Shown here piece after piece: positions 1 to 22,061 of a DNA stretch of 32,705 bases. Every line of letters starts with the position of its first letter. The first letter of the stretch is position 1. The position numbers and the translations under genes were made by a program. The notes below the pieces were generated by a model. That model did not search any database, had not been told where the DNA came from, and worked only from the letters and a program-made list of their open reading frames with translations. This stretch comes from Candidatus Sulfotelmatobacter sp. (GTDB lineage Bacteria > Acidobacteriota > Terriglobia > Terriglobales > Acidobacteriaceae): positions 1 through 32,705 of the forward strand of contig JASHNX010000103.1 in assembly GCA_030041415.1 (NCBI GenBank), in the 5' to 3' direction.

Positions 1-287
1 GGTTTACTGAGACACTTTCCGCCGATAACGTGAATACCGGTATCGCGCACATCAAGCTGGGGCGGACTTTACTGCGCGAGAGTCGCTTTGCCGATGCGCA
101 GGTTGAGAGTCTTGCCGGCTACGAGAATCTGATGAAGCAAACCAACCCAGGCAATAGCTATCTTCGCGCGGCGCGCAAGGATCTGGCAGCGGAATATAAT
201 GCTTTACAGCAGCCGGAAAAGGCAGCCCGGTTTCGAGCGGAATTGGCGTCGGCCGAGGAACCCGGCAAAACCACCGCGAAACAGTAA
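1..287 (+). CDS. C-terminal end of a TPR-type protein (partial, 5' end outside window)
   Basis: The frame is open from the window edge (first full codon at position 3) to TAA at 285-287. The visible residues are helical, with a tandem-repeat feel: a stretch like AHIKLGRTLLRESRFADAQ, then AARKDLAAEYNALQQPEKAARF. This is the alternating A/L/Y pattern of tetratricopeptide repeats. In Acidobacteriota such tails usually belong to Ser/Thr kinases or secreted TPR proteins, and a full-length example sits at 17798-20434 in this window. The kinase or other N-terminal domain is not visible, so the function cannot be stated. A GTG at 30 could act as a start, but the frame is open upstream and has no clear ribosome site there, so I treat it as truncated by the window. 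Confidence 0.7.
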   Translation, partial: FTETLSADNVNTGIAHIKLGRTLLRESRFADAQVESLAGYENLMKQTNPGNSYLRAARKDLAAEYNALQQPEKAARFRAELASAEEPGKTTAKQ

Positions 288-338
288 TAACCTGAGAACA
301 GGTGACCCCCTTTGTGTCAGTTTGTTCGGATTGCAAAA

Positions 339-363
339 AGCCCGCCCGATAGTCGGGCGGGCT
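339..363 (-). terminator. Rho-independent terminator for the barrel-gene remnant
   Basis: A perfect 11-bp GC-rich stem (339-349 with 353-363) closes a 3-nt loop. On the minus strand the stem is followed by five T residues (complement of A335-339). It lies 23 nt past the stop codon of the minus-strand outer-membrane remnant, as expected for that gene's original terminator. Confidence 0.85.
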
Positions 364-385
364 GGTCGAGCAAAGTGAATTGCAA

Positions 386-601
386 CTAGAAGCGAACTCT
401 TGCGCCTAACTGGATCGCCCGATCGCCTCCCACATTCTCCTGCGCGGAACCGAGCAACGCTCCAAAAATACTGGGCGAGAACAGTCCCCATGGCTGATTG
501 GGATCCAGCCACTGGTTGTGGTTTAGGACGTTGATCCGCGAGTGGACCGATCTTTTGCTACTATGAAAAGGACGCCGTTGCCGGCGCGAAGCGCGGAGCA
601 C
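386..601 (-). pseudogene. C-terminal remnant of a TonB-dependent-receptor-like (Oar-type) outer-membrane barrel
   Basis: The minus-strand frame ends in AIQLGARVRF followed by a stop. This is the usual last beta strand with terminal Phe recognised by the BAM machinery. About 40 residues upstream is RINVLNHNQWLDPN, which resembles the penultimate-strand motif (F-N-x-x-N-H-x-x-W/F-x-x-P-N) of Oar-like receptors common in Acidobacteriota. Those proteins are about 1000 residues long, whereas only about 55 recognisable residues remain here. Further upstream (about 550-787) I see no barrel sequence in any frame, only unrecognised sequence up to the tRNA. The gene therefore looks deleted except for its 3' end, and it keeps its terminator at 339-363. 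The upstream boundary given is that of the open frame, and the recognisable part is about 386-560. Confidence 0.6.
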
Positions 602-787
602 GGCTTTGTTGGCAGAGCTGGCATGCTTTCAAGGCGGCGGATTTGTATGCGGATGCGCTGGCTTGAGGTAGTTGTCGACACCAAGACTGTCTGCAACGAA
701 TTCAGACACCGTTCTTAAAATTGCGCGACGATTGCGCAACCAGTTTTGAAGATGGCATGCTGTAGGCGGTTGATTCCACAAAGGTAT

Positions 788-863
788 GGGCGCGTAGCTC
801 AGGTGGTAGAGCAATGCCCTTTTAAGGCATGGGTCGCAGGTTCGAATCCTGCCGCGCTCACCA
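788..863 (+). tRNA. tRNA-Lys (anticodon UUU)
   Basis: The full cloverleaf can be folded by eye. The acceptor stem is 788-794 with 853-859 (one G-U pair) and the D arm is 797-800 with 809-812. The anticodon stem is 814-818 with 826-830, with loop CTTTTAA, giving anticodon TTT at 821-823. The T arm is 836-840 with 848-852 around TTCGAAT. The discriminator is A860 and CCA is encoded at 861-863. The tRNA is 76 nt in total. Confidence 0.97.
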
Positions 864-956
864 AGATTTCAAAGGCAATTAGCCGTCTGAGGTCAGCGAC
901 GTTGCCAACGAGCGGCGCCAAAATCTATCCGCTATTCCGGGCCAGACAGGTCTTCT

Positions 957-3017
957 TCATTGCCGTCCCGGCATTGCCGCAGTGGCGCTGAACCGATCAG
1001 AACGGGCGTGGCGCAGTTTTCTCAGCTCGACTGCTTTGTCTGCGATGTGTTCAGCGCTGACCTCGAATTCCTTGATCAGTTCCCAGGGAGCGCCAGATTC
1101 GCCGAAACGGTCGTGGACGCCAATTGCGCCGGTGATGACCGGTGTGCCGTAAAGCTCGCGTGAAGCGGTCATAATTCCGCTGACCCGCCACGCCAAAGCA
1201 CCTACCTGATGTTCTTCCGCGGTGATGATCATGCCGGTTTCTTTTGCAGCACGGATCACCGCGTTCTGATCGATCGGCTTCAGCGTATGCATGTTGATGA
1301 CACGGGTTTCCCATCCGAACTCCTGTTGAAGGATGTAGGCCGCGCGCATCGCTTCCGGAACCATCGGGCCACAAGCGATAATGCTTAAATCTTCGGACTC
1401 ATTTTCGTATGCGGAAGCAAGATAGGTTTCGAATGCGTCTACAAATTTTTCGGTGGTGTGCCGCAATCGGATCACATTTGCAGTTCCAAAGATGAATGGA
1501 GTTTCCTGCTTGCTGACAATCGGTGTCGCTTCCCGCGCGAAGCGGAGGTACTTTGGTCCAAAGTGGCGGAGTAACAGGTACGTCGTGGCTTTCATTGTTT
1601 CAATCGCATCGCACGGAACGACAACCGACATATTCGGAAGGCCGCACATGGCGAATAAGTCTTCGAGCGCTTGGTGGGTCGCGCCGTCCGGCCCAACCGA
1701 GACGCCTCCGTGAGCGCCGGCGATAAGCACATTGAAGTTGCCGTAGCAAACTGAGGTTCTGATTTGATCGAGATTTCTGGCCGCGGCGAAGGTCGCGTAG
1801 GTGCCCAGAACCGGCAACTTTCCCTCTCTGGCCAATCCTGCCGCAGCCGCGGTGGCGGATTGCTCGGCGATTCCCATGCTGATCCAGCGCTTTTTTCGCT
1901 CAGGTTTGCCAGCGTAAAAATCGCTCAGGGTGATGGAGCTCGAAATATCGAGCCCGAGGCACACCACGCGTTCATCGTCTCCATGCTGGGCCAGCGCTTG
2001 TCCAAAGCCCTTGCGCGTGGGCTCCATTTGGACATCCATTACGATCTGGCTGTTCCACCAGTAATCATGGCCGAAATGCGGCAGCTTTTGATTGAGCAAG
2101 TGGGACGCCTGACGTTGATACTCTTCTGCGCGTTCCAGCAAGCTTGCATAAGGAATTTTTTCCAGCAGGCCAAGTTCGCGCAGACCCTTAATCATCTCCT
2201 CATGGTTTGGAGCTTTGCCATGCCAGCCTGCAAGATTCTCCATGAAGCTGACGCCTTTGCCTTTGACTGTTGTTGCCAGCACGACAAGCGGCTTGCCGTT
2301 GCCGACATTACTCGCAGACAACGTCGTCACGATCTGATCCATATTGTGTCCGTCGATTCGGACCGTGTTCCAACCGAAGCTATTGTATTTCTCCTCGAGC
2401 GGATCAATGTTCATCACTTCTGCCACCGCGCCGTCGATCTGCAGGCCGTTGCAATCAACGATGCCGACCAAGTTATCAAGCTTGTGATGCGCCGCTTCCA
2501 TGGCGGCTTCCCAGATCTGCCCTTCCTGCTGTTCGCCATCACCCATGATGCAGAAGGTGCGGTGGTGCCGGCCGTCCAACTTTCCGGCAAGCGCAATGCC
2601 TACGGCGATGCTCAGACCCTGTCCTAGCGAGCCGCTGGAGACCTCGACGCCGGGTAGCTTAAGCCAGTGGGGATGCCCTTGAAACGGCGAACCCAGTTTT
2701 CGCAACACCACGACGTCCTCGACCTTACAGAAGCCGGCGAAAGCCAAGCCGAGGTAAAGACTCGGCGCTTTATGACCTGCAGACCAGATAATTCGGTCCC
2801 GCAGAGGCCAGTCCGGATTTTCCGGGTCGTGATTTGCGATTTTCAGATAAAGCGCGGCGGCAATGTCCATGATGGAGAGCGTGCCGCCGGCATGACCGGA
2901 GCCGGCCGCGCAGAGAGCGACCAGATCGTAGCCGCGCATAAGCCTGGCTGCATCGATTAATTCCTCAATCGAATAATCGCGGATGACTTTTCCAGTGACG
3001 GAATCGAGAAGCGCCAT
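957..3017 (-). CDS. tkt: Transketolase
   Basis: This is a full-length transketolase of 686 residues. It transfers two-carbon ketol units between sugar phosphates in the pentose phosphate pathway, using thiamine diphosphate (ThDP) and Mg2+. Visible marks are the GSGHAGGTLS motif with its catalytic-site His near residue 42, the ThDP motif GDGE (about 159-162) followed by N near residue 190, and the pyrimidine-domain stretch GIAEQSATAAAAGLA with the ThDP-activating Glu. The open frame extends to 3038, but I place the start at the ATG at 3017 because AAGGAGG lies 6 nt upstream of it. The upstream codons have no such site. The gene lies 48 nt after asnA on the same strand, so the two are probably co-transcribed. 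Sequence style is nearer the archaeal/split-type transketolases joined in one chain than E. coli TktA, which is an impression only. Confidence 0.95.
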   Translation of the reverse strand: MALLDSVTGKVIRDYSIEELIDAARLMRGYDLVALCAAGSGHAGGTLSIMDIAAALYLKIANHDPENPDWPLRDRIIWSAGHKAPSLYLGLAFAGFCKVEDVVVLRKLGSPFQGHPHWLKLPGVEVSSGSLGQGLSIAVGIALAGKLDGRHHRTFCIMGDGEQQEGQIWEAAMEAAHHKLDNLVGIVDCNGLQIDGAVAEVMNIDPLEEKYNSFGWNTVRIDGHNMDQIVTTLSASNVGNGKPLVVLATTVKGKGVSFMENLAGWHGKAPNHEEMIKGLRELGLLEKIPYASLLERAEEYQRQASHLLNQKLPHFGHDYWWNSQIVMDVQMEPTRKGFGQALAQHGDDERVVCLGLDISSSITLSDFYAGKPERKKRWISMGIAEQSATAAAAGLAREGKLPVLGTYATFAAARNLDQIRTSVCYGNFNVLIAGAHGGVSVGPDGATHQALEDLFAMCGLPNMSVVVPCDAIETMKATTYLLLRHFGPKYLRFAREATPIVSKQETPFIFGTANVIRLRHTTEKFVDAFETYLASAYENESEDLSIIACGPMVPEAMRAAYILQQEFGWETRVINMHTLKPIDQNAVIRAAKETGMIITAEEHQVGALAWRVSGIMTASRELYGTPVITGAIGVHDRFGESGAPWELIKEFEVSAEHIADKAVELRKLRHARSDRFSATAAMPGRQ

Positions 3018-3065
3018 AACCAGCCTCCTTGCACTCATGCGATCGAGCGATGCAGCCTGCGGCTC

Positions 3066-4208
3066 TTACTCCAGCACAAAAATATTCTTGCGGGCGCACA
3101 TCTCTTTCAGGATTCTCGGCCAAACGGTTACGCTGACCTCGCCAAGATGAGCTTTGCGAAGCAACAGCATTAACGTTCTTGACTGGCCGATTCCGCCTCC
3201 GATGGAAAGCGGAATCTCATTAGCGAGAATTGCCCTGTGGTAGGGCAGATTCAAAAATTCACGCTGATTCGACAGCGCCAATTGGCGTATCAAAGTTTCT
3301 GCCGTTACGCGAATGCCCATGGAACTCAGTTCGTGACGCCGCCGGGTAACAGAATTCCAGACGAGAATGTCGCCATTGAGCCCGTGCGTGTCCTTGCCCG
3401 TCTGCCCGCGGGTATTCGTGATCCAGTCGTCGTAGTCGGCGGCTCGCATCTCGTGGGGATAACCATCCTTGAGCGGCCAGCCGATTCCGGTGATGAAAAT
3501 TGCAGGATGTCTTTGGAGAATCGCCGTCTCGCGCTGCTTGCGCGGCAGATCGGGGTACATGTCCAGAATCTCTTCCGCATGAAGAAAAGTGAGTTTTTCC
3601 GGAAGATCCGGAAACCGCGAGTCTTTGAGTTGCGGAAACAAGGACTGGGCGAACTTCTCGGCACCGACCAGGACCTTCCAAATCTTGCTTACAATCAATT
3701 TCAGGAAGTCCAGATTGCGCTGGTCATCCGTGATGACCCGTTCCCAATCCCATTGATCGACATACGCAGAGTGATCGTGGTCGAGGAAGTAATCTTTGCG
3801 GACCGCACGCATATCGGTGCAAATGCCTTCTCCCGCTTTGCATTCGAATTGCTTCAGCGCTATCCGTTTCCACTTGGTCGCTGCTTGCACCACCTGGGCA
3901 TCAACGGGATGGGCGTCACGATCGTTCGAAATGTGGAATTGAACGGGAGTGCGCGAGCCGTCGCGGTCGAGCATGTCGTTGACCCCGCTTTCGACATCCA
4001 CGATCAGCGGCACTTCGACCATCATCAGATTGAGTTCTTTGCAGAGGTTGTCTTCGATGTAACGCTTGACCTGAAAAATCGCTTGCTGGGTTTCTTTGGG
4101 ATTTAGCAATGAGTGGTAGTCATCAGGCAGAATTTTTTCCAACTCTCGATAATCACCGATGCCGGGACCGGCAAGGTCGGCCTTCTTATCGATAACGAGC
4201 GTGCTCAT
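3066..4208 (-). CDS. asnA: Aspartate-ammonia ligase (asparagine synthetase A)
   Basis: AsnA makes asparagine from aspartate, ammonia and ATP (AMP-forming) and is a class II aminoacyl-tRNA-synthetase-like enzyme. The chain matches the family along its length: ATKWKR (about 110-115), KAGEGICTDMRA, YVDQWDWERV (about 149-158), the block YDDW...HGLNGDILVWN, ELSSMGIRV, and the C-terminal ATP-site SIGGGIGQSR. It has 380 residues against about 330 in E. coli. The extra residues lie mostly at the N-terminus (about 40) and in insertions before the C-terminal half. The ATG at 4208 has GGAAGGAG 7 nt upstream. It is the first gene of a likely two-gene unit with transketolase. Ammonia-dependent Asn synthesis suggests ammonium availability or nitrogen rescue. 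Confidence 0.95.
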   Translation of the reverse strand: MSTLVIDKKADLAGPGIGDYRELEKILPDDYHSLLNPKETQQAIFQVKRYIEDNLCKELNLMMVEVPLIVDVESGVNDMLDRDGSRTPVQFHISNDRDAHPVDAQVVQAATKWKRIALKQFECKAGEGICTDMRAVRKDYFLDHDHSAYVDQWDWERVITDDQRNLDFLKLIVSKIWKVLVGAEKFAQSLFPQLKDSRFPDLPEKLTFLHAEEILDMYPDLPRKQRETAILQRHPAIFITGIGWPLKDGYPHEMRAADYDDWITNTRGQTGKDTHGLNGDILVWNSVTRRRHELSSMGIRVTAETLIRQLALSNQREFLNLPYHRAILANEIPLSIGGGIGQSRTLMLLLRKAHLGEVSVTVWPRILKEMCARKNIFVLE

Positions 4209-4346
4209 GGGATTCTCCTTCCAGACGGAGTTCTCCGTTTGCGCATGATCCGCTAGCTGAAATTAGAGTACGAGGGATGATTTTGGTCTGTGCGGGAGAT
4301 CACAACGATCAGTGAGCCGAAATGAGGGCCACGAGGGTCGTTGTTC

Positions 4347-4368
4347 GTTCGCGGCACTTGTGCCGAAC
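4347..4368. promoter_or_regulatory. Imperfect inverted repeat in the divergent asnA / secreted-protein intergenic region
   Basis: The 243-nt space between the asnA start (4208, minus) and the start at 4452 (plus) holds an imperfect palindrome, GTTCGCGGCAC-TT-GTGCCGAAC, whose left arm carries two extra bases. It could be an operator or the base of an RNA hairpin. I see no convincing -35/-10 pair, and no regulator can be assigned. Confidence 0.3.
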
Positions 4369-4451
4369 ATCACAGACGCCGGGCGACTAACTGAGCCACC
4401 ATTTAAGAGGAAGTGGTTCGGGCGCTGCCGGTTGGCGCGCAGGGGTGGCGT

Positions 4452-4808
4452 ATGACGAGGTCAATGGTTCTCGCGATTTTGCTGGCCCTCTTTTGCTTCT
4501 CAGGAGCGCTACACCTTTTCGCTCAGGAGAAGTCGTCGATTACAGTGCGGGGAAGCGAACTCAGCAATGGTGTTGTGATTCTGGATGCTGTGAAAGGCGA
4601 CAGGTCTTTCACGCTAGAGTGCAACCAGGGGGCACCGGACTGTACGGCTTTGAGCAATGGCAAATATTTGATGATCGAACTTCCAAAGAATTTTGGAATG
4701 TACGAGTGCAAAGATGTTGAGGTTTATCCGGAGTCCGCAAACATGCCGGGCGCTGCCATGCCGGATAAGCATAAGAAAGTCGGCGAGTACTGCCTGACAG
4801 ACAAGTAG
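4452..4808 (+). CDS. Small secreted protein with four cysteines, unknown function
   Basis: The product is 118 residues. It begins with a clear Sec signal (MTRSMVLAILLALFCFSGAL, with cleavage likely after HLFAQ). The mature part has four Cys: two within CNQGAPDC, one in YECKD and one near the end in EYCLTDK. Two disulfides are plausible in the periplasm. I do not recognise a family. The frame is open from a GTG at 4413, but only the ATG at 4452 places the hydrophobic signal at the N-terminus, with an AGGGG-like site upstream. It lies about 100 nt before the ferredoxin/methyltransferase gene on the same strand, and whether they share a transcript is unclear. Confidence 0.75.
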   Translation: MTRSMVLAILLALFCFSGALHLFAQEKSSITVRGSELSNGVVILDAVKGDRSFTLECNQGAPDCTALSNGKYLMIELPKNFGMYECKDVEVYPESANMPGAAMPDKHKKVGEYCLTDK

Positions 4809-4905
4809 AGAGCCAAAGTTCACAGCGCGAATTCTGAGCACTCGCCTGGAAGCTACAGGCGTGCAGAGAAAACTTCCGAATCTTTCAGCACACGGGAGCG
4901 AGTTC

Positions 4906-6258
4906 ATGGAGCCGTTCCGTCATCACATATTCATCTGTACACAGGCGAAACCGGAGGGTGCCACATCTTGTCCGGGTAATCGTTCGTGGCAAGTGTTGCA
5001 GGCTTTGGAGACCGAGCTGTGTGAGCAAGGATTGGATGACGATGTTCAAGTGAGCACCTGCGGTTGCCTTGGCTTGTGTGATGACGGGCCGCTCATGATC
5101 GTTTATCCCGAGGGAGTGTGGTACCGCAAGATCAGGAAAGAAGATGTTGCAGAAATCGTAAGCTCGCACTTGAAGTCCGGGGAACCTGTCTCTCGACTCG
5201 TTTGGCGCGACCCGCAGGAGATGAAGGCGAAAGCGGCTAAGCATCGCGATCAGTATCGCGCGATGATTAAAGCGAAAGGCCAGGCGGGAGTTCTTCCCGA
5301 TGAACTCAACGAAATGATTCGCGGCTTCATGCCAAGCCGGGCCGTGCTCACAGCACTGGAGTTGGACTTGTTCAGTGCGGTGGGAGATGGTTGCTCGGCA
5401 AAAGAAATAGCGTACGCGATCGAAGGCGATGAGCGAGCGACGGAAATGCTGCTGAACGCTCTCGTCAGCCTAAAGCTTCTGGAGAAAAAAGATGGGACGT
5501 TTCTGAACACACCCGTGAGTGCGCGATTCTTGTCAGCTAGCTCCCGCGACAACGCCCGACCGGGATTGATGCACACCGCACATTTGTGGAATCGGTGGTC
5601 GACATTGACGGAATGCGTGAAATCAGGAACGTGCATTGAGCGGGACGAGCGCGAACAGAAAGGCGTTAGAGACTTCATCGCTGCAATGGATCGGAACGCA
5701 AGAGAGCGGGCTGCCGCAGTAGTGAAGGTGGTTGGCGTCAACGGAATTCGGCGAATGTTGGACCTGGGGGGTGGATCAGGAGCGTACTCGATTGCTCTGG
5801 CACGAGAAATGCCCAACCTCAATTCTGAAGTCCTCGACCAGGCTCAGGTCATCCCTCTAACGCAGGCATACATTCGGAAAGCCGGCCTGGAAGGGCGCAT
5901 AACAACGCGTGTCGGTGATATGCTGCGCGATCCCTTGGGCAAGAATTACGACCTTGTATTCGTCTCTGCGATCTGCCACATGTTTTCGGCGGAAGAAAAC
6001 CGCAGGCTCTTTCGTCGCATTTATGAGGCACTTGCTCCGCACGGCCGGGTGATCATACAAGATTTTATTCTTGAAGCTGGCAAAACGGCTCCGCGTTTCG
6101 CAGCGTTGTTTTCGCTGAACATGCTTGTCGGAACGCGAATGGGAAGCAGCTACAGCGAACCGGAATATAGCGATTGGCTCCAGAATGCCGGATTTTCGGA
6201 TATCCGGAGGATGCCCTTGCCGGGACCAGCCGGATTGATGATCGGATTCCGCAATTGA
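4906..6258 (+). CDS. [2Fe-2S] thioredoxin-like ferredoxin fused to a SAM-dependent O-methyltransferase-like domain
   Basis: The product is 450 residues with two domains. Residues 1 to about 100 form a thioredoxin-fold [2Fe-2S] ferredoxin. Its ligand set Cys11, Cys22, Cys54 and Cys58 matches the spacing of the Aquifex-type ferredoxin, and the segment GCLGLCDDGPLMIVYPEGVW is diagnostic. After a basic linker, residues about 145-450 resemble family-2 O-methyltransferases: a winged-helix dimerisation part (PSRAVLTALELDLFSAV), then a Rossmann fold with SAM motif I LDLGGGSG at 285-292. Further C-terminal marks are DLVFVSAICHMFS and GRVIIQDFIL. The ATG at 4906 is preferred over a GTG at 4861 because GGGAG precedes it and it begins directly at the ferredoxin domain. 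The substrate is unknown. A redox-controlled or electron-assisted methylation is inference only. Confidence 0.85.
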   Translation: MEPFRHHIFICTQAKPEGATSCPGNRSWQVLQALETELCEQGLDDDVQVSTCGCLGLCDDGPLMIVYPEGVWYRKIRKEDVAEIVSSHLKSGEPVSRLVWRDPQEMKAKAAKHRDQYRAMIKAKGQAGVLPDELNEMIRGFMPSRAVLTALELDLFSAVGDGCSAKEIAYAIEGDERATEMLLNALVSLKLLEKKDGTFLNTPVSARFLSASSRDNARPGLMHTAHLWNRWSTLTECVKSGTCIERDEREQKGVRDFIAAMDRNARERAAAVVKVVGVNGIRRMLDLGGGSGAYSIALAREMPNLNSEVLDQAQVIPLTQAYIRKAGLEGRITTRVGDMLRDPLGKNYDLVFVSAICHMFSAEENRRLFRRIYEALAPHGRVIIQDFILEAGKTAPRFAALFSLNMLVGTRMGSSYSEPEYSDWLQNAGFSDIRRMPLPGPAGLMIGFRN

Positions 6259-6321
6259 AAAAGATTCCGATACCTCGATGCGTCTGGGGCATAAAAACCC
6301 CCGGCACGTCACCGCAAACAA

Positions 6322-6359
6322 GCCTCAGACATTTCTATCGCCACTCATGTTCCTGAGGC
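6322..6359. terminator. Long hairpin between convergent genes
   Basis: GCCTCAG (6322-6328) pairs with CTGAGGC (6353-6359). ACAT/ATGT extends the stem after a 2-nt bulge. It sits in the 129-nt gap between the plus-strand fusion gene (ends 6258) and the minus-strand small protein (ends 6388). It has no T-tract, so termination in either direction is plausible but not proven. Confidence 0.4.
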
Positions 6360-6387
6360 GTTCTGGCGCGTCTGACGACCGTCTTCT

Positions 6388-6576
6388 TTAAACATGCATC
6401 TCTTGACTTGCCTGCAACCGGTTCAGTATGGACTCGATCAGTTTTTCATTGTTGCGCAACGCTTTTTTGAAATCGTTATGGTCTGTGTGAGAGATCTCCT
6501 TTACCAGTTCACGATGGCGCTGCTCAAGAATGTTGATGAGGAGTTCCTGCTCCTCGACAGTAAGTGTCAGCTCCAT
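6388..6576 (-). CDS. Small charged helical protein, paralogue of the one at 11315
   Basis: This is a 62-residue, highly charged protein predicted to be almost all helix, probably a helical hairpin or coiled coil. It begins MELTLTVEEQELLINILEQR and contains a KEISHTD segment. An ATG with AGGAGG 4 nt upstream supports translation. It shares the layout ME-x-x-LT-x-EE...ILE-x-R...L-x-K-x-ISH with the 67-residue protein at 11315-11518, so the two are paralogues. Short proteins of this general type (LT...E-LL...L-x-x-L-x-x-EI-x-x-TD) occur widely in environmental bacteria with no known function. It lies 78 nt after the SnoaL-like gene on the same strand and may share its transcript. Confidence 0.8.
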   Translation of the reverse strand: MELTLTVEEQELLINILEQRHRELVKEISHTDHNDFKKALRNNEKLIESILNRLQASQEMHV

Positions 6577-6654
6577 AATTCCTCCTACACGAAGAGATGG
6601 GGACTCTGCAGAAGTAGGCTACGCGCCGTTCTCAATCGCCGACAAAACCAGGTA

Positions 6655-7116
6655 TCAGGAGGCGAGAGGCAAATCGCTTGACCAAGAGTCGGCCGCGATC
6701 AGCCAGGTTTTGCCTGTGCGCCTCCACACAGTGAGATATTTTCCCTGATCTTCTCTTGTCGCGCCGTCTTCGGCAGGCACGGTCATGCGGTAGGTCCCGA
6801 CGTCCCAGGCGACAGGCCCCTGTTGCTTGATATAGGTGACATCGAAGGCCAAATCGGAGAAGCCACGGTTCAGCGGCGACTTCAAGTATTCCCGGATTGC
6901 ATCGCGCCCATGAATCGCTTCATGGTGCGGCGGAAGGTAAACTGCGTCTTCCGCATAAGCGGCAACAACTCCATCCAACTCTTGTGCATTCCAGTGCCGG
7001 GCCCAGTCGTCTCCAATGCGGCGAATGGTGGCGCCTGCATCGAGTGGCTTCCTTCTTAGAGCATGTAATTTCCTGACGCTTGTGATTCGGCGATTCCTTT
7101 TCGCGTTCGTTGGCAT
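6655..7116 (-). CDS. SnoaL-like / DUF4440-type ketosteroid-isomerase-fold protein
   Basis: The product is 153 residues. A basic N-terminal extension (NAKRNRRITSVRKLHALRRK) precedes a cone-shaped NTF2-like domain. Visible family marks are IRRIGDDWARHWNAQELDGVVAAYAEDAVYLPP, then IHGRDAIREYL, GTYRMTV, and the closing strands GKYLTVWRRTGKTWLIAADSW. Proteins of this type often act on small ligands or are uncharacterised stress proteins, so no substrate can be inferred. The start is placed at 7116 because AAAGGAGG lies 7 nt upstream; the frame itself opens at 7167. It is divergent from the YbaK-type gene, with 227 nt between. Confidence 0.82.
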   Translation of the reverse strand: MPTNAKRNRRITSVRKLHALRRKPLDAGATIRRIGDDWARHWNAQELDGVVAAYAEDAVYLPPHHEAIHGRDAIREYLKSPLNRGFSDLAFDVTYIKQQGPVAWDVGTYRMTVPAEDGATREDQGKYLTVWRRTGKTWLIAADSWSSDLPLAS

Positions 7117-7343
7117 ATTCGAACCTCCTTTCAATACCGGCGGGAATTGGCGCCGCGAGCTCTTCACTTAATGATCCACGATTTTGTTTCTTTTGTAAGT
7201 GATTGACGACACAAACCCCTCTCAGCAAGCTCAACCCTCTGGATGACATTGCACGCCGGTGGGAGCTGCCGGTGATTGTTCTCACTGCAAAATCTGGCAA
7301 ACAGGAGTAGAAGGGAATCAAGAGAGTGGAAAGGAGGCTATCA

Positions 7344-7829
7344 ATGTCTCTTACAACGCTAAAGCAATTTCTGGACAGCAAACAAATCAAATACATTGTG
7401 ATATCCCACTCGGTGGCGTACACGGCGCAAGGCGTCGCTGCGTTGACACACATTCCCGGCAAAGAACTGGCTAAGACTGTGATTGTTAAGATCGATGGAA
7501 AGTTGGCGATGGCTGTTGTTCCGGCTTCACGCCACGTCGATCTGACCATGTTGAAATCCGCGGCCCAAGCCCGGTCGGTGCAGTTGGCGGTAGAGAGTGA
7601 TTTCAAAGATAGTTTTCCCGATTGTGAAACCGGCGCCATGCCTCCGTTTGGAAATCTCTACCACATGCGCGTAATCGCGGATGAAGTTCTGTCGCATGAC
7701 AAAGAGATTGCATTCAATGCCGGCAGCCACAGAGAACTGGTTCGGCTGGCATGGAACGATTTCGAACGGCTGGTTCAACCGAGGATTGCCAAGATCTCCA
7801 ACAAGGGAGTTCAAAGTGACGCCGCTTAG
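7344..7829 (+). CDS. YbaK/ProX-type aminoacyl-tRNA deacylase-domain protein
   Basis: The product is 161 residues, a stand-alone YbaK / prolyl-tRNA-editing domain. Visible marks are HSVAYTAQGVAA, the central HIPGKELAKTVIVKIDG with the conserved Lys of this fold, VVPASRHVDL, GAMPPFGNLY, and IAFNAGSHRELVRL. Members hydrolyse mischarged aminoacyl-tRNAs in trans, although some environmental homologues are untested. The ATG at 7344 has AAAGGAGG 6 nt upstream, so the in-frame GTG at 7326 is not needed. It is the first gene of the plus-strand run to 11518, followed after 86 nt by the COG2403-like NTPase. Its link to the carbamoyl genes is by position only. Confidence 0.9.
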   Translation: MSLTTLKQFLDSKQIKYIVISHSVAYTAQGVAALTHIPGKELAKTVIVKIDGKLAMAVVPASRHVDLTMLKSAAQARSVQLAVESDFKDSFPDCETGAMPPFGNLYHMRVIADEVLSHDKEIAFNAGSHRELVRLAWNDFERLVQPRIAKISNKGVQSDAA

Positions 7830-7915
7830 GCACTCGATCAGGTGACCGGCGGCACTGACCCGATACTTCTGGCGTGGGAACATACAACTTGGGTGGGGTT
7901 CTGGCGGAGGCTGCC

Positions 7916-9241
7916 ATGAAGCGGATCCTCATCTTAGGCGCAGCGGGAAGGGACTTTCACAATTTCAACGTCGTTTTTCGTGGTAACCCCGATTATCAAG
8001 TGGTCGCATTCACGGCCACCCAAATCCCTGACATCGCCAATCGTAAATACCCGGCGAAATTGGCCGGCGGCCTGATCTATCCACGCGGCATACCGATCAT
8101 CGAAGAAAAAAATCTGGAGAAAGTGATTGCCGATGAGAAGGTGGACGCCGTCGTGTTTTCCTACAGCGACATATCGCACCAGAACCTGATGCATCTGGCT
8201 TCACGGGTTGTAGCTGCCGGCGCCGACTTCTGGCTACTGGGTACCGAGCACACGCAGATAGGGTCTGTACTCCCGGTAGTTTCAGTCTGCGCCGTGCGGA
8301 CGGGCTGCGGCAAGAGTCCGCTTTCACGTCTGGTTGTTGCAACATTGAAGAATCTTGGCCGCCATCCCGTCGTTATTCGCCATCCCATGCCTTATGGCGA
8401 CCTAGCCACGCAGGCCGTGCAGCGGTTTGCCTCAATCGACGATCTCGAACGTCAGCGATGCACGATAGAAGAACGCGAAGAATATGAGCCCCATATCCGG
8501 CAGGGAACTGTGGTCTACGCCGGAGTGGACTACGAGGCCATCCTGCGGCGAGCCGAAAAAGAAGCGGACATAATTCTGTGGGATGGGGGAAACAACGATA
8601 CCCCGTTCTACAAGTCCGATCTCGAAATCGTTGTGGTTGATCCGCACCGTCCAGGGCATGAGTTGTCCTACTTTCCGGGAGAAGTCAACCTGCGGCGTGC
8701 CCACGTGGTGGTGATTAACAAGGTCGATACAGCGGCACCTGCCGACATCGAGATCGTTCGGGAGAATGTTCAGACAAATAACCCGCACGCCCGAATCCTC
8801 GAAACCGCTTGTCGCGTGTCTGTCGCGAAAGCTGAGTTAATACGTGGAAAACGTGTGCTGGTTATTGAAGATGGACCCACGCTAACGCACGGGGAAATGC
8901 TATACGGCGCGGGATCGGTAGCAGCTCGCGAATATGGGGCGGCCGAACTCGTATGTCCGAAGCCATTTGCGGTGGGTTCGATTCGCGACATATACGAGAA
9001 ATATCCGCACCTCACCAACATTCTTCCAGCCATGGGCTACAGCCTTACGCAGAGACATGAGTTGGAAGAAACCATCACCCGCGTGCCTTGTGATCTCGTC
9101 TTGATCGCGACGCCCATTGACCTGGCTCGCGTGATTGCAATCGAGAAACCGGCTTTGCGCGTCAACTACGAAGTGGAAGAACTCACGCACCCGCGGCTGG
9201 CAGAAATTCTTACGTTGTTCGCCGCGCCTGTGGAGGTGTGA
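7916..9241 (+). CDS. COG2403 / cyclic 2,3-diphosphoglycerate synthetase-like NTPase
   Basis: The product is 441 residues. An N-terminal Rossmann-like part (MKRILILGAAGRDFHNFN) precedes a P-loop domain with Walker A AVRTGCGKS (126-134; the first Gly of the consensus is Ala). It has an acidic strand ILWDGGNND and a G4-like NKVD at 268-271. This pattern fits the COG2403 family of predicted GTPases, whose members are often named cyclic 2,3-diphosphoglycerate synthetase after the archaeal enzyme. Whether this protein makes that compound is untested, and cDPG is otherwise a methanogen osmolyte. The ATG at 7916 has GGAGG 5 nt upstream and begins exactly at the Rossmann strand. Its stop is 1 nt from the start of argF, so it is translationally linked to the carbamoyltransferase. 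Confidence 0.8.
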   Translation: MKRILILGAAGRDFHNFNVVFRGNPDYQVVAFTATQIPDIANRKYPAKLAGGLIYPRGIPIIEEKNLEKVIADEKVDAVVFSYSDISHQNLMHLASRVVAAGADFWLLGTEHTQIGSVLPVVSVCAVRTGCGKSPLSRLVVATLKNLGRHPVVIRHPMPYGDLATQAVQRFASIDDLERQRCTIEEREEYEPHIRQGTVVYAGVDYEAILRRAEKEADIILWDGGNNDTPFYKSDLEIVVVDPHRPGHELSYFPGEVNLRRAHVVVINKVDTAAPADIEIVRENVQTNNPHARILETACRVSVAKAELIRGKRVLVIEDGPTLTHGEMLYGAGSVAAREYGAAELVCPKPFAVGSIRDIYEKYPHLTNILPAMGYSLTQRHELEETITRVPCDLVLIATPIDLARVIAIEKPALRVNYEVEELTHPRLAEILTLFAAPVEV

Positions 9242-9242
9242 C

Positions 9243-10208
9243 ATGAAAGATTTTGTTTCCATCCGGGATTTCTCTCCTCCAGAAATCCAATATCTACTGT
9301 TGCTCGGCCGCCATATCAAGGCGCAACCCGAAATGTACAAGAGCGCACTTGCAGGCAAAACCCTGGCGATGATTTTCGAAAAACCATCTCTGCGGACGCG
9401 GGTGACCTTCGATGTGGGTATCCAGCAATTAGGAGGTTTTTCAATCTATCTTTCTCCTGCCGAAATCAACCTGGGCCGGCGCGAGTCGGTTTACGACGTA
9501 GCAAAAAACCTCGAGCGCATGGTGCAAGGAATCATGATTCGCACGTTTGCTCATGAGATCGTAGAGCAGATGGCTCAGTGGGCGTCTATTCCTGTCATCA
9601 ATGGCCTGACCGATTACAGTCATCCCTGCCAGGCGATGGGCGATTATCTGACCATGTGGGAAACCAAAGGCCGGCTGGACAGGCTGAAAATCGCCTTCAT
9701 CGGAGATGGCAATAATGTGGCGCACTCGCTCATGTTCGTCGGAGCTCAGGTGGGCGCCAATGTTTGGGTGGCAACACCGCCAGGATATGAACCGCACGAA
9801 GACGCAATCGTCTGGTCCTGGGCTCGCGCCTGCGAAACCGGAGCAGGCTGCCATGTCGGCAATGATGCGAGAGAAGCGGCTACCGACGCCGACGTAGTCT
9901 ACACCGACGTTTGGGCCAGCATGGGCCGCGAAGGCGAAGCGGAGCAGCGGCGCCCCGCATTCAAGAACTATCAGGTAAACGCAGATCTTTTTGCCCGCGC
10001 GAAACACGACGCCGTCTTCATGCACTGCCTTCCCGCCCGCCGGGGCGAAGAAGTGACCGGGGAAGTCATTGATTCGCTACGTTCTGTGGTGTTTCAACAA
10101 GCCGAAAACCGGCTGTGGATACAGAAAGCGATCATGGTTGAGCTGATGAAAGATGTGCCCGTAGGGTTGATGCGTCCAGCAACGGTGCCGGAACTGGTTC
10201 ATGCGTAA
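9243..10208 (+). CDS. argF: Ornithine carbamoyltransferase
   Basis: The product is 321 residues. It transfers the carbamoyl group between carbamoyl phosphate and ornithine/citrulline in the cytoplasm. The carbamoyl-phosphate motif is SLRTR (49-53; Leu in place of the more usual Thr, as in many bacterial OTCs). HPCQAMGD, the ornithine-binding SMG loop in VWASMGRE, and HCLPARRGEEV are all present. The SMG loop argues against putrescine carbamoyltransferase or aspartate carbamoyltransferase. The ATG at 9243 begins 1 nt after the upstream stop, with GGAGG inside the upstream gene's end. Carbamate kinase follows 11 nt later. In this company a catabolic role (citrulline phosphorolysis to carbamoyl phosphate, then ATP) is as likely as arginine synthesis, and the sequence alone does not decide. 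Confidence 0.93.
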   Translation: MKDFVSIRDFSPPEIQYLLLLGRHIKAQPEMYKSALAGKTLAMIFEKPSLRTRVTFDVGIQQLGGFSIYLSPAEINLGRRESVYDVAKNLERMVQGIMIRTFAHEIVEQMAQWASIPVINGLTDYSHPCQAMGDYLTMWETKGRLDRLKIAFIGDGNNVAHSLMFVGAQVGANVWVATPPGYEPHEDAIVWSWARACETGAGCHVGNDAREAATDADVVYTDVWASMGREGEAEQRRPAFKNYQVNADLFARAKHDAVFMHCLPARRGEEVTGEVIDSLRSVVFQQAENRLWIQKAIMVELMKDVPVGLMRPATVPELVHA

Positions 10209-10219
10209 GAGGAACAGCG

Positions 10220-11224
10220 ATGAAGACCATGTTGCTGGCGGTCGGCGGAAACTCGTTGATCCGTGCGGGCGAGAAGGGCACGGTCGCCGAGCAGCAATCC
10301 AATGCTCACCGCACGGCGGCGCAAATCGCCAAGCTGGTGAGGGACGGTTACCGAATCGTTCTCACCCACGGCAACGGTCCACAGGTCGGAGCAGCGCTCT
10401 TGCGATCGGAGCGGGGAGCGAACCAGGTTCCGGGACAAACACTCGACGTCTGTGATGCTTCTACCCAAGGTGAGATTGGTTATCTTCTGCAGCAAGCTCT
10501 CGATACAGAATTAAAGCGCGCCGGTTTGCACGTTCCCGTGGCAACCGTGCTGACCCAAGTCGTGGTTTCGGTGGACGATCCAGCAATGCGGCATCCAAGC
10601 AAACCAATCGGCCCCTTCTATTCACGTGAAGAAGCCGAACAGCGAGCACACGATTTCGGCTGGAAGATCGTCGAAGATGCGGCTCGTGGGTACAGGCGTT
10701 TGGCTCCGTCGCCCGAGCCTCTCGACATTGTTGAGCTGGAAATCATTCGCGATCTCATGCAACAGAGTGTGCTGGTGATCGCTTGCGGCGGAGGCGGCGT
10801 GCCAGTCGCGTGGGACAACGGCTGCCTGGAAGGTGTCGAGGCCGTCATCGACAAAGACCGCGCTTCCTCTCTGCTGGCATCGCGTCTGAGCATAGAACAA
10901 TTCGTTATCTCTACCGATACGCAGTATGTCTACCTGGACTATAAAAAACCCACACAACGGCCGTTGCTGCTGGTTAGATGGCGCGAGCTTCGGCAATACG
11001 CCAAAGCGGGGCAGTTCCCGCCCGGCAATATGGGGCCAAAGATCGAGTCCGTCTTGCGGTTTCTGACGCTCGGAGGCAAAGAAGCGATCATTACGTCATG
11101 TGACAACCTGTACGAAGCGGTGTGCGGAAGAGGCGGAACACACATTGTTGCCGACCCAGAGCCGCCTGCGGAAGAAAACCAGGAAGAATCGTGCAAAAAA
11201 TGTTTGTGCCCGGCGCGCTCGTAA
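10220..11224 (+). CDS. arcC: Carbamate kinase
   Basis: The product is 334 residues. It interconverts carbamoyl phosphate + ADP and carbamate + ATP. Family marks in order are AVGGNSLI at the N-terminus, VLTHGNGPQVG, SKPIGPFYS, ACGGGGVPV, AVIDKDRASSLLA, FPPGNMGPKIES, and the usual closing GTHIV. Carbamate kinases normally stop about there (about 310-315 residues). This one continues for about 20 residues with an acidic stretch and a Cys cluster, C325-x2-C328-x-C330. AGAGGA precedes the ATG. It follows argF by 11 nt and is followed after 90 nt by a small helical protein gene. The arrangement supports substrate-level ATP formation from a carbamoylated compound. Confidence 0.93.
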   Translation: MKTMLLAVGGNSLIRAGEKGTVAEQQSNAHRTAAQIAKLVRDGYRIVLTHGNGPQVGAALLRSERGANQVPGQTLDVCDASTQGEIGYLLQQALDTELKRAGLHVPVATVLTQVVVSVDDPAMRHPSKPIGPFYSREEAEQRAHDFGWKIVEDAARGYRRLAPSPEPLDIVELEIIRDLMQQSVLVIACGGGGVPVAWDNGCLEGVEAVIDKDRASSLLASRLSIEQFVISTDTQYVYLDYKKPTQRPLLLVRWRELRQYAKAGQFPPGNMGPKIESVLRFLTLGGKEAIITSCDNLYEAVCGRGGTHIVADPEPPAEENQEESCKKCLCPARS

Positions 11225-11314
11225 GAGCGCCACGACTTTAACGGGCGTGACGGGTGCAGGAAGTTTGCATAATCCGTACCAAAAGCGAAGCAGCCTGCCG
11301 CTTAGGAGGTAGCC

Positions 11315-11518
11315 ATGGAAGTGAAACTCACTGCAGAAGAAGGCAACATATTGCTGGAAATTCTGGAGGAAAGAGACCAGGACTTGCAAAAGAAAATTTC
11401 TCATGCCAAGCAACAAGGTCCAAGAGAGGAGCTGAAAGAAACGGAAACGGTGGTCGAAAATATCATCGAAAAAATCGTAGTAGCGGAAGAGCGGGAGTTT
11501 TCCGATTTGTGGTGGTAA
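11315..11518 (+). CDS. Small charged helical protein, paralogue of the one at 6388
   Basis: The product is 67 residues, acidic and predicted all-helical, ending FSDLWW. It begins MEVKLTAEEGNILLEILEER with AGGAGG 5 nt before the ATG. It is a clear relative of the 62-residue protein at 6388-6576 (same LT-x-EE...ILE-x-R...K-x-ISH frame), with a longer C-terminus. It is the last gene of the deacylase/NTPase/OTC/carbamate kinase run. No function is known. A coiled-coil adaptor or regulator is speculation. Confidence 0.8.
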   Translation: MEVKLTAEEGNILLEILEERDQDLQKKISHAKQQGPREELKETETVVENIIEKIVVAEEREFSDLWW

Positions 11519-11718
11519 CAGCAGCGAATGAATGTTCACCCAAACCGGCGAGCGGGTTTTGTGCGCTGAGATGGGCACCATACCGCAAATCGCGTTCAAC
11601 GTGTGTCCCAATATACCTGTCACATGCGGATATTCCAGCCGTCACATCGGGGAGAGGGTTGCTTGAGAAATAATTATTGATGAGGAAAGTGTCGCGTTCT
11701 CACGACGGAGGAGGAGCT

Positions 11719-14037
11719 ATGTCGGTAACGAAACAACAGGCCCTCGAATATCACTCGGGGGCTCGACCCGGGAAGATCGAGGTTTCTTCGACTAAGCCTT
11801 GTCTCACACAGCGTGATTTGAGTCTCGCCTACACGCCCGGCGTGGCGGAGCCGTGCATGGAGATCCGTGACAATCCGCAGAACGTGTTCAAGTACACGGC
11901 GCGCGGCAATCTCGTGGCTGTGGTCACGAACGGAACGGCCGTGCTCGGCCTGGGCGATATAGGCGCACTGGCGGGAAAGCCGGTTATGGAAGGCAAGGGA
12001 GTGTTGTTCAAACGATTTGCCGATGTCGATGTATTCGATATCGAACTCGACACTCACGATCCTGACGAAATCGTGAAAGCGTGCCAGCTTCTCGAACCAA
12101 CCTTCGGCGGCATCAACCTAGAAGACATCAAAGCCCCGGAGTGCTTCTACATCGAAGAGACACTCAGAAAGACGATGAAAATTCCGGTGTTCCACGATGA
12201 TCAGCATGGAACAGCAATCATCACAGGCGCGGCGCTGCTGAACGCACTTGAGGTCACGAGCAAGGACATCAGTAAAATTCGCGTGGTGTTCAACGGAGCC
12301 GGAGCGGCCGGCATTGCAACAGCGGAGCACTACGAACGCCTCGGGGTGAAACACGAGAACATTATTCTCTGCGATACGAAAGGAGTGATTTACAAGGGCC
12401 GGACCGATGGAATGAACAAGTACAAAGAGCGCTTTGCCCAAGACACAAAGCTGCGCACGCTCGCCGATGCTATGCGCGGCGCGGACTTGTTCGTGGGGCT
12501 GTCGGTAAAGGGCGCGGTCACTGCCGATATGGTGCGATCGATGGCGCTCAATCCAATCGTCTTTGCCATGGCGAATCCCGATCCTGAAATCACGTACGAA
12601 GAAGCCAAAGCCTGCCGTGGCGATATCCTCATGGCCACCGGCCGCTCCGATTATCCGAGTCAGATTAATAATGTCCTCGGTTTCCCATTCATTTTCCGCG
12701 GCGCTCTCGACGTGCATGCGACCGCGATTAATGAAGAGATGAAACTTGCCGCCACGCGCGCGCTGGCTGCATTGGCTAAGGAAGACGTGCCGGATTCGGT
12801 CTGCCGTGCGTACGGAGTACAGCGTTTGAGATTTGGTCCGGACTATCTCATCCCGAAACCGTTTGACCCGCGCGTATTGCTCTGGGAGGCGAGTGCCGTG
12901 GCCGAGGCGGCGATGCGGAGTGGAGTGGCGCAAAAGCCAATCGATCTTGACGAGTACCGCGACCAACTCGAACGGCGGCTGGGCAAAGCGCATGAAATCG
13001 CGCACATGATGGTGCAGAAGGCGCAATCGCGGCCCAAGCAGGTGGTGTTCCCGGAGGGAGAGCACGAGAAAATTCTCCGCGCGGCGCATCTGCTTCGAGA
13101 AGAAAACATTGCGTATCCAATTCTGCTCGGGCAGGAGGCGACAATTGGCCGTAACGCCGCTGAGCTGGGTCTTGATCTGACCGGTATCAGGATTGTGGAT
13201 CCGGAGTGCTCGCCGCTGCGAGAGCGCTTCATTCAGGAGCTGTACCGGTTGAGGCAGCGGCGGGGTGTAACCACGACCGAGGCCCGCGTGATGATGAAAG
13301 ATCCGAATGTGTTCGGATCGATGATGGTGCATATGGGTGAAGCAGATGCGCTCGTGGCGGGCGTGAGCCAGCACTTCCCGGATACGATCCGGCCCGCGCT
13401 GCAGATTGTCGGCACCCGGGAGGGATTGAAAAAAGTTTCGGGGTGCTACCTGATGATTACGCGCTCCGGCAGACTCTATCTGCTCGCGGACCCGAGCGTG
13501 AATATCGATCCGACTGCGGAGGATCTGGTTGAGATCGCGCTGTGTGCCGCGGGGACAGCGCGCCGATTCAACCTGACGCCGCGCGTGGCGATGCTCTCGT
13601 TCTCGACGTTCGGAAGCACCAAGCATCCACAAACCGAAAAGGTCCGAAAAGCGGTCGATCTGCTGCACCAAGCGGATCCGACTTTGGTTGTCGATGGCGA
13701 GGTGATGGCCGATGTTGCCGTGTCTCCGGAACTGCTCGAGAAGAATTATCAGTTCAGTACGCTCAAGGGGGGAGCGAATGTGCTCATCTTTCCGGATTTA
13801 GCGTCCGCGAATATCGCATATAAGCTGCTGGCGAAGCTGGGAGGAGGAACTACGCTTGGTCCGATCCTGATGGGCATGAGCAAACCAGTACACGTCGTCG
13901 CGCGCGACACGGAAGTGGAGGAAATCGTCAATGTCGCAGCCATTGCAGTCGTGGATGCACAGGAGAATGAGCTACTCCATTGGCCGGCCACGAACGAGCC
14001 GCTCGAGGTGGCTGGATCGCGAGTCCTCGAGTCATAG
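11719..14037 (+). CDS. maeB: NADP-dependent malic enzyme with C-terminal phosphotransacetylase-like domain (MaeB type)
   Basis: The product is 772 residues. It oxidatively decarboxylates malate to pyruvate, making NADPH. The N-terminal malic domain shows [11 protein letters not shown] with the catalytic Tyr, [37 protein letters not shown], the dinucleotide loop VFNGAGAAG (about 190-198) and [10 protein letters not shown]. From about residue 440 a phosphotransacetylase-like domain follows ([15 protein letters not shown], then [24 protein letters not shown]). In MaeB proteins this domain is regulatory and senses acetyl-CoA rather than catalysing. The size matches E. coli MaeB (759). The ATG at 11719 directly follows GGAGGAGGAG, so the upstream in-frame ATG at 11677 is rejected. 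The 200 nt before it hold no gene, and it may have its own promoter. Confidence 0.95.
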
Positions 14038-20579: not shown

Positions 20580-22061
20580 ATGTCTACGCTCGTGGAGTGT
20601 GTGCCGAATTTTTCCGAAGGCCGGGATCGCGCAAAGGTCGATGCGATCGTCGCGGCCATGAAAATGGATGGGGTGTATGTGCTCGACCGCGAAATGGACG
20701 CGGACCACAATCGCTGCGTGATTACGCTGGCGGGCGAGCGCGAGACAATTCAGGAAGCGGCGATTCGCGGGGTGGGCAAGGCCGCGGAGTTGATTGATCT
20801 TTGCGTGCATCAAGGTGCGCATCCGAGAATGGGCGCGGCGGATGTGGTGCCGTTCATCCCAATCGATGGAGTGACGATCGAAGATTGCGTGGCGATGGCG
20901 AAGCACGTGGGCGCGGAGATTTGGAAGCGGTATCAGATTCCGGTTTATTTATACGAAGCCGCGGCGGCGACGCCTGAGCGGCAGAATTTAGAAAATATAC
21001 GGCGCGGGCAGTTTGAAGGCATTCGTGCGGAGATTGCCACAAACCCGGCGCGGAAGCCGGATTTTGGCGAGGCGAGAGTGCACCCGACGGCGGGGGCGAC
21101 GGTGGTGGGAGCGAGGAAGTTTCTGATCGCTTACAACGTGTTTTTGAATACGCCGGACGTTGAAATTGCGAAGAAAATTGCCAAGGCTGTGAGATTTTCG
21201 AATGGTGGAATGCGCTTTGTGAAGGGTGCAGGATTCCTGGTGCGTGGGTTGGCACAGGTTTCGATGAACCTGACGGATTTTGAGCAGACGCCGGTGCACC
21301 GCGTATTCGAAATGGTGAAGCGCGAGGCGGAGCGGTACGGTGTGGTGCCGGTATCGAGCGAGATCGTAGGGCTGATTCCGAAGAAAGCGCTAGAGCAGGC
21401 TGCCGAGTGGTTTTTGCAGGTGGAGAACTTCGATTCATCGCTGATTCTGGAAAACCGTCTCTCCGCGGTGATGGGCGGGAAGATGGCAGTCGGTGGATTG
21501 CGAGCGGGAGTGGAACCATTCGTGGAGCAACTGGCTGCGCCGACGCCGACGCCCGGTGGAGGCAGCGCCTCGGCGGCGGCGGGAGCGATGGCAGCGGGGC
21601 TGGCGACAATGGTGGCATCGATGTCGCGGGGGAAGAAAGCGTATCTGCAATATGAAGCGGAGTTGAGCGGAGCGATTGGCGAGCTGAGTACCTTGCGCGA
21701 GGAATTGAAAGCGGCGATCGATGCCGACTCGACAGCGTACGACGCCGTAGTGAAAGCTTATAAAGACGCGAAGGCTGGCGGTAGCGGAAGCGAGGCTCAG
21801 ATTGACGCGGCGCTGAAACAGGCGACGAACGTTCCGCTGAGCGTGGCAGAGAAATCAAACCAGGTTGCACGGATCGCTTCCGCGCTGGAAGGGATTACGA
21901 ATCCGAACATGAAATCGGATTTGACCACGGCTCAGGCACTGGCGCGGGCGGCAATCACCGGAGCGCTAGCCAATGTGGAGATCAACCTGGCATCGCTGAA
22001 GGATCAGAGTTTTGCCGCGGAAGTGCGCAAGAGAGCGGAAACTTTGAAGATGAAGACATAG
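20580..22061 (+). CDS. ftcD: Bifunctional glutamate formimidoyltransferase / formimidoyltetrahydrofolate cyclodeaminase
   Basis: The product is 493 residues with two fused enzymes. Residues 1 to about 300 are the formimidoyltransferase: LVECVPNFSEGRD at the N-terminus, HQGAHPRMGAADVVPFIP in the folate site with catalytic His, and FLVRGLAQVSMNLTDF. Residues about 320-493 are the cyclodeaminase: LAAPTPTPGGGSASAAAGAMAA and a long helical bundle. It moves the formimino group from formiminoglutamate (histidine breakdown) to tetrahydrofolate and then releases ammonia to give methenyl-THF. The fused layout is that of the animal enzyme, and many bacteria carry the halves separately. No hut genes are visible in this window. 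Confidence 0.95.
   Translation: MSTLVECVPNFSEGRDRAKVDAIVAAMKMDGVYVLDREMDADHNRCVITLAGERETIQEAAIRGVGKAAELIDLCVHQGAHPRMGAADVVPFIPIDGVTIEDCVAMAKHVGAEIWKRYQIPVYLYEAAAATPERQNLENIRRGQFEGIRAEIATNPARKPDFGEARVHPTAGATVVGARKFLIAYNVFLNTPDVEIAKKIAKAVRFSNGGMRFVKGAGFLVRGLAQVSMNLTDFEQTPVHRVFEMVKREAERYGVVPVSSEIVGLIPKKALEQAAEWFLQVENFDSSLILENRLSAVMGGKMAVGGLRAGVEPFVEQLAAPTPTPGGGSASAAAGAMAAGLATMVASMSRGKKAYLQYEAELSGAIGELSTLREELKAAIDADSTAYDAVVKAYKDAKAGGSGSEAQIDAALKQATNVPLSVAEKSNQVARIASALEGITNPNMKSDLTTAQALARAAITGALANVEINLASLKDQSFAAEVRKRAETLKMKT

Follow-up and report, generated by a model that had tools for sequence, protein, structure and literature searches.

What might a nucleoside triphosphatase (NTPase) do at the head of an operon that continues with an ornithine carbamoyltransferase (OTC) and a carbamate kinase (CK), when no arginine deiminase accompanies them? 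The question is raised by a 32,705-nucleotide stretch of Candidatus Sulfotelmatobacter sp. DNA, contig JASHNX010000103.1 of assembly GCA_030041415.1 (hereafter the window; contig C197 in our numbering), which belongs to a 4.8 Mb genome that is 95.6% complete. We propose, with a probability of roughly 0.87, that the three genes are a bacterial operon of the arginine synthetase pathway, arcE-arcB-arcC. The initial annotation had suggested that they might form an unassigned ATP-yielding pathway, the best candidate of the window for an undescribed system. Our proposal retains an ATP-yielding route through arginine and citrulline, with the NTPase in the place of arginine deiminase. Yet this route is neither unassigned nor new as such, since the arginine synthetase pathway of ArcE, ArcB and ArcC is already in print, as the accessible part of one account states (PMC13260591). 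What would be novel is its bacterial, clustered form. We saw no report of a bacterial arcE operon among the titles listed from the literature that we could search; the original Thermococcus study may describe bacterial clusters, and we therefore claim no priority.

Three linked genes without a classical ArcA

The gaps of 1 and 11 nucleotides first described between the three genes are borne out by their coordinates (NTPase-OTC and OTC-CK, respectively; Table 1), and all three lie on the same strand. A GGAGG immediately precedes the ATG of the NTPase gene, which might instead start upstream, with the GTG at 7874. The OTC gene has its ribosome-site-like GGAGGT inside the 3' end of the preceding NTPase gene, an arrangement that suggests translational coupling of the two; all three genes are presumably co-transcribed. 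The span originally given to the operon, 7344-11518, was too wide: we keep the three genes and leave out the YbaK-type gene in front of them and the 294 nucleotides behind CK. The YbaK-type gene was rejected as an operon member because it matches nothing in other loci, neither in those of relatives (L005-L023, n=19, with flanks of at most 1.5 kb and in some cases little or no upstream sequence) nor in L024-L103. Positions 11225-11518 lie 3' of the CK stop, and the one open reading frame scanned there (11254-11673) matches no family. Scans for promoter-like sites (none, against 2.4 in shuffled sequences) and terminator-like sites (4, against 4.2) give no operon boundary.

Table 1. Positions of the operon genes, of the neighbouring gene and of a deiminase-fold protein encoded on another contig
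Feature	Position	Strand	Remarks
NTPase, proposed arginine synthetase ArcE	7916..9241	+	441 aa; ATG at 7916; resembles cyclic 2,3-diphosphoglycerate (cDPG) synthetase (COG2403-type, a label of the initial annotation)
OTC, proposed catabolic ArcB	9243..10208	+	321 aa; TIGR00658 and NF001986 above cut-off
CK, ArcC	10220..11224	+	334 aa; TIGR00746 above cut-off
YbaK-type aminoacyl-tRNA editing protein	7344..7829	+	PF04073, 88 bits; neighbour judged to lie outside the operon
Divergent protein of the dimethylargininase/arginine deiminase fold	C92:2510-3406 (L116, 1011-1907)	- (in L116)	298 aa

The OTC scores 380 bits with TIGR00658 (cut-off 281) and contains the stretches SLRTR, HPCQ, DVWASMG and HCLP, which we take to be the four active-site stretches. 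The CK (364.7 bits, cut-off 358.25) is the sole strong match to TIGR00746 in its genome, the other reaching 33 bits. A separate argC-argB-argF-argG cluster on contig C101 makes the window OTC a second copy, 49% identical to the ArgF of the same genome, which also encodes an aspartate carbamoyltransferase (ATCase, contig C148) and CarB (1470 bits). A second OTC joined to a CK, beside a separate arginine cluster and CarB, reads as catabolic. In a tree of 27 OTC sequences, the window protein belongs to a clade with support 1.000 that comprises twelve OTCs linked to ArcE (itself counted), those from near relatives among them; ArgF falls outside this clade, next to another ArcE-linked OTC (L064), in a tree whose deeper branches are poorly supported. 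The genome encodes class-III aminotransferases, none of which reaches the cut-off for ornithine aminotransferase (best 304 bits, cut-off 378), and when remnants of pyrB and of ornithine aminotransferase were sought in the window, the OTC itself was the sole match.

This OTC and CK lack only a citrulline-forming step, and the NTPase would supply it. The absence of ArcA, noted initially for the window, extends to the genome and to 100 relatives, 45 of the 101 genomes belonging to the same genus: TIGR01078 rises above its cut-off of 489 bits in none of them. Weak matches, of at most 39 bits, occur in 56 of the 101 (31.8 bits in the window's own genome). In a control set of known genomes the same model exceeded the cut-off in one of 14. 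No amino-acid permease appears among the 20 window proteins scanned with Pfam, and no genome search for ArcD was made.

The NTPase and its family

No Pfam or NCBIfam model matches the NTPase above its cut-off; only HypB, LpxK and CobW appear, at 16-18 bits. The solved structures nearest to it in sequence are cDPG synthetases, chiefly through one stretch (phmmer: residues 211-321 of 441, E 1.7e-6; profile: positions 203-312, E 4.3e-10), and no clear full-length sequence match to them was found. The structure, predicted with confidence (mean pLDDT 93.1, pTM 0.92), has an N-terminal Rossmann-like domain followed by a P-loop domain of the SIMIBI class. In a Foldseek search with this model, cDPG synthetase comes first (E 5.8e-18, 14% identity). 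VIA-align superposes it on cDPG synthetase (Z 21.9, rmsd 11.5, 357 residues aligned), LpxK 4ehy (Z 20.0, rmsd 3.2, 278 aligned), HypB 2hf8 (Z 17.2, rmsd 3.0, 185 aligned) and a Rex-family repressor (residues 1-108 of the model; Z 12.5, rmsd 1.6, 92 aligned), in lists that are topped by one domain and outside which further families may lie. The P-loop ligases dethiobiotin synthetase and CTP synthase are also among the fold matches.

At least 582 stretches, across bacteria and archaea, encode a relative of this NTPase, the best 80 at 59-78% identity, and the named relatives closest to it among the matches listed are Acidobacteria/Terriglobia records. We aligned the window protein with 61 of 96 usable locus proteins, leaving out five further loci that differ in the N-terminal search pattern. 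The 62 sequences, bacterial and archaeal, share 99 invariant positions, among them the stretches GAAGRDFH, RTGxGKS (the P-loop), RHPMPYG, EExEEYEP, WDGGNND and EDGP; the invariance of NF in DFHNF, the end of the search pattern, is by selection. Numbered on the window protein, the invariant residues include R155-H156-P157, E185-E186, D223 to D228 and D319-G-P. The family is thus common, yet its members are readily taken for cDPG synthetases or for NTPases of unknown function. Very probably the window NTPase is a bacterial arginine synthetase, ArcE, and a presumed orthologue of the assayed TK2200 of Thermococcus kodakarensis. The 2,3-bisphosphoglycerate once suggested for assay is not a likely substrate, that link stemming from the fold relative cDPG synthetase.

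Association with carbamate kinase and other arginine genes

Among the 101 genomes, the NTPase is present in 28 (a match of 19.6 bits in G088 was left out). The CK model finds something in 62, but we disregarded matches of at most 87 bits, most of which lie below 45 and probably belong to other amino-acid kinases; 28 genomes have matches of at least 333 bits, 24 of them above the curated cut-off. Both genes occur together in 26 genomes, the NTPase without a full CK in two (G053, and G031 with a CK fragment), CK only in two, and 71 genomes have neither (Fisher p 1.4e-19, a value that is mainly descriptive, given that the genomes are related). Within the genus (n=45), 19 genomes have both, one has the NTPase with the CK fragment, none has CK alone and 25 have neither. 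Where both are present, CK lies just downstream on the same strand in 14 genomes, the two genes are 2.4-2.8 kb apart on opposite strands in three, and they are unlinked or on other contigs in nine. Hence, the pairing of the two genes is not only a matter of linkage. The OTC is directly seen between them in eight of the 19 relative loci.

The linkage of the NTPase, initially known from a single genome, is kept in other phyla for CK as well as for OTC. As far as ArcA and this linkage were searched, the two conditions initially named as refuting the proposal do not hold. We analysed 80 distant loci, 18 of them with short flanks, and found an arginine-type gene (CK, OTC, argS, ornithine aminotransferase or a whole arg operon) near the NTPase in 42. 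The fetched flanks contain CK 26 times, OTC 16 times, and argS, sucC and sucD ten times each; the same-strand neighbour within 200 nt is CK in 18 loci, OTC in 11 and argS in nine. The CK-linked records come from Acidobacteria, Aminicenantes, Neomarinimicrobiota, KSB1, Calditrichaeota, Zixibacteria, Nitrospira, Planctomycetota, Symbiobacterium and Bdellovibrionales. Two kinds of context are telling. In locus L024 the order is NTPase-OTC-CK-ATCase-ornithine aminotransferase, the last two identified by family models, and L026 and L027 have the same gene set by BLAST (in L026 the ATCase also by model). In L074, from a Syntrophomonadaceae metagenome-assembled genome (MAG), the NTPase stands within an operon at 103-10971, argC-argJ-argB-argD-OTC-GNAT-NTPase-argG-(unnamed open reading frame)-argH. 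The L024 and L074 contexts suggest that the NTPase deals with arginine, citrulline and ornithine.

Other neighbours recur. Just upstream of the ArcE-type gene, argS is found in ten Anaerolineae/Chloroflexi loci (L043, L045, L052, L059, L067, L075, L078, L079, L091 and L093; three argS identified by family model). The succinyl-CoA ligase genes sucC-sucD lie 3' of ArcE-CK in ten loci (L031, L039, L071, L072, L083, L087, L088 and L094-L096) from KSB1, Zixibacteria, Calditrichaeota, Neomarinimicrobiota and one unclassified record; ATP-forming steps are there encoded side by side, and four of these loci have an aldehyde dehydrogenase upstream.

Thermococcus and the published pathway

The accessible part of the published account reports that, in T. 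kodakarensis, ArcE (TK2200) makes ATP while deiminating arginine, OTC (TK0871) splits citrulline and CK (TK2158) forms a second ATP; it also describes the archaeon as having no carbamoyl phosphate synthetase and as requiring arcE and arcB for pyrimidines (PMC13260591). We surveyed 61 genomes assigned to the same genus as a record titled Thermococcus sp. The window NTPase family is present in 59 of them, full-length at 62-64% identity in 54 and as fragments in five, and CK in 55. TK2200 itself presumably belongs to this family, as fits the survey.

Two further kinds of gene were seen in these genomes. G107, G112, G113, G127, G159 and G160, the only six genomes searched for it, have an ATCase-like gene (29-31% identical to the window OTC) some 2.5-11 kb away from the ArcE-type gene; locus L034 has an ATCase above the cut-off 5.4 kb from the NTPase. 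A second, distant match to the NTPase (18-27 bits) occurs in nine genomes (G104, G118, G126, G129, G140, G144, G145, G151 and G154), in eight of them within open frames of about 440 aa. These second matches are possibly true paralogues of the cDPG synthetase type.

In the pathway that we propose, ArcE would turn arginine, ADP and phosphate into citrulline, ammonia and ATP. Phosphate might attack the guanidinium carbon while ammonia departs, and the resulting phospho-isourea of citrulline might then phosphorylate ADP within the P-loop domain, a chemistry suggested by analogy with the P-loop ligases dethiobiotin synthetase and CTP synthase. ArcB would split citrulline by phosphorolysis into ornithine and carbamoyl phosphate, and ArcC would transfer the phosphate of the latter to ADP. 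With ArcE replacing arginine deiminase, the net yield would be two ATP per arginine in such bacteria, against one for deiminase users. The activity, the direction and the nucleotide of the window enzyme are predictions; the ArcE reaction reportedly runs both ways (Michimori 2024, PNAS, the source of the pathway).

Alternative explanations

Several observations weigh against the arcE-arcB-arcC interpretation. None of the sought arginine genes was found in 38 of the 80 distant loci, and neither OTC nor CK in the short flanks of 11 of the 19 loci of relatives. The association with CK has exceptions, as G051 and G083 have CK without the NTPase and G053 the reverse. The NTPase contains N268-K269-x-D271, which resembles the NKxD of GTPases, and it could use GTP/GDP. 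The equation of its family with the assayed ArcE is presumptive and draws on the genomes surveyed in the Thermococcus genus. When NTPase and CK lie on the same contig in that genus, they are 39-143 kb apart in 29 of 35 genomes and at least 298 kb apart in six, a weakly informative result. From the locus tags and the genome size of T. kodakarensis we would expect about 38 kb. G113, in which the positions of NTPase and OTC fit expectation best, has no CK match. Finally, the C92 protein (Table 1), which accounts for the weak ArcA match of the window's own genome, has 57 bits with the ArcA model (cut-off 489), 76 with its best match, dimethylargininase (cut-off 340), and 74 with the broad Pfam arginine deiminase family PF02274, above the cut-off of 22.8. 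This similarity to the superfamily might suggest a classical route in which the C92 protein makes citrulline for OTC and CK, the NTPase being a regulator or accessory. We regard this as very unlikely: the protein is far under both equivalog cut-offs and matches ArcA over a C-terminal stretch only, its gene is on another contig, and similar weak matches occur in relatives both with and without the operon. The C92 protein could nonetheless be an extra source of citrulline.

Other readings concern the enzymes themselves. That the NTPase is a cDPG synthetase or a related phosphoglycerate enzyme, placed beside OTC and CK by chance, would fit its closest solved structures, in sequence and fold, and the loci devoid of arginine-type neighbours. 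Yet identity over the fold is only 14-17%, linkage and co-occurrence with CK are conserved, and the second protein of nine Thermococcus-genus genomes suggests that there are two distinct paralogues; given this low identity and the arginine context we rejected this function as highly improbable. We attach as little credence to another carbamoyl route, in which the carbamoyl group would go to some other acceptor, as in the putrescine/agmatine route or routes of the oxamate/YgeW kind. Carbamate kinases take part in several of these, as is generally known and as the accessible parts of two reports indicate (PMC9843812, PMC11326118), but the OTC lies above the ornithine cut-off and under those for putrescine (306 bits) and YgeW (46.5 bits) carbamoyltransferases, 500 in each case, and both were rejected. 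The rival that deserves most attention keeps the enzyme and changes its use: its main role would be to synthesise arginine, consuming citrulline, ATP and ammonia, or else to provide pyrimidine synthesis with carbamoyl phosphate, ATP formation being secondary. The position of the NTPase inside a full arginine biosynthesis operon in L074 speaks for it, as do the ATCase gene after CK in L024, L026 and L027, the ATCase or ATCase-like genes near the NTPase in L034 and the six Thermococcus-genus genomes, and the requirement of pyrimidines for arcE and arcB in T. kodakarensis, as far as the accessible text tells (PMC13260591). However, CarB, argG and argF of the window bacterium (argH was outside our search) would make a second route unneeded, the adjacent carbamate kinase favours ATP formation, and L024, L026 and L027 also have an ornithine-aminotransferase-type gene, a degradative step. 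For the window we consider this use unlikely.

Possible uses beyond ATP formation

More interest attaches to two kinds of variant, one with added genes for ATCase and ornithine aminotransferase and the other within an arg operon: they suggest that bacterial ArcE operons might serve for more than ATP formation. With their own ATCase and ornithine aminotransferase, L024, L026 and L027, which come from sister Acidobacteria, would send arginine-derived carbamoyl phosphate directly to pyrimidines, and ornithine to glutamate or proline. In L074, ArcE might use free ammonia to convert citrulline to arginine, so that argG-argH would be bypassed. That such operons are a hub of arginine metabolism is a speculation that we consider rather unlikely. 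Having all three steps of the pathway adjacent in one bacterial cluster would facilitate their cloning and testing in hosts other than hyperthermophilic archaea.

Three other genes of the window, all on the forward strand, are worth recording. A 465-aa protein (4861-6258) looks like an unusual fusion: a stretch resembling a Clostridium-type [2Fe-2S] thioredoxin-like ferredoxin (residues 19-114, under the cut-off) is joined to an O-methyltransferase with dimerisation domain (residues 146-446). Downstream of the operon, 11719-14037 encodes a malic enzyme fused to a phosphotransacetylase, and 20580-22061 a formiminotransferase-cyclodeaminase, another enzyme of amino-acid breakdown.

Comparison with known systems

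LpxK and HypB share with the NTPase the fold of the SIMIBI P-loop domain, but they have other substrates and their alignments start at residues 87 and 105 of the model, excluding most of the N-terminal domain. The cDPG synthetases (PDB 8oru, 8ork, 9sxb) match its fold best when the entire chain is considered; unlike them, and besides its low identity to them, the NTPase occurs in the context of arginine, not of phosphoglycerate. The arginine deiminase pathway (ArcA-ArcB-ArcC-ArcD) has in common with the window system an OTC, a CK and the formation of ATP from carbamoyl phosphate, whereas the window system has no ArcA above the cut-off and its first step would be of the NTPase type and ATP-forming. 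The closest counterpart is the arginine synthetase pathway of T. kodakarensis, with what are very probably the same three kinds of enzymes and no classical arginine deiminase. Yet the window bacterium has CarB and arginine biosynthesis, whereas the accessible text on T. kodakarensis describes an archaeon without carbamoyl phosphate synthetase; and the locus tags given there are not adjacent (PMC13260591), whereas the genes of the window form one tight cluster.

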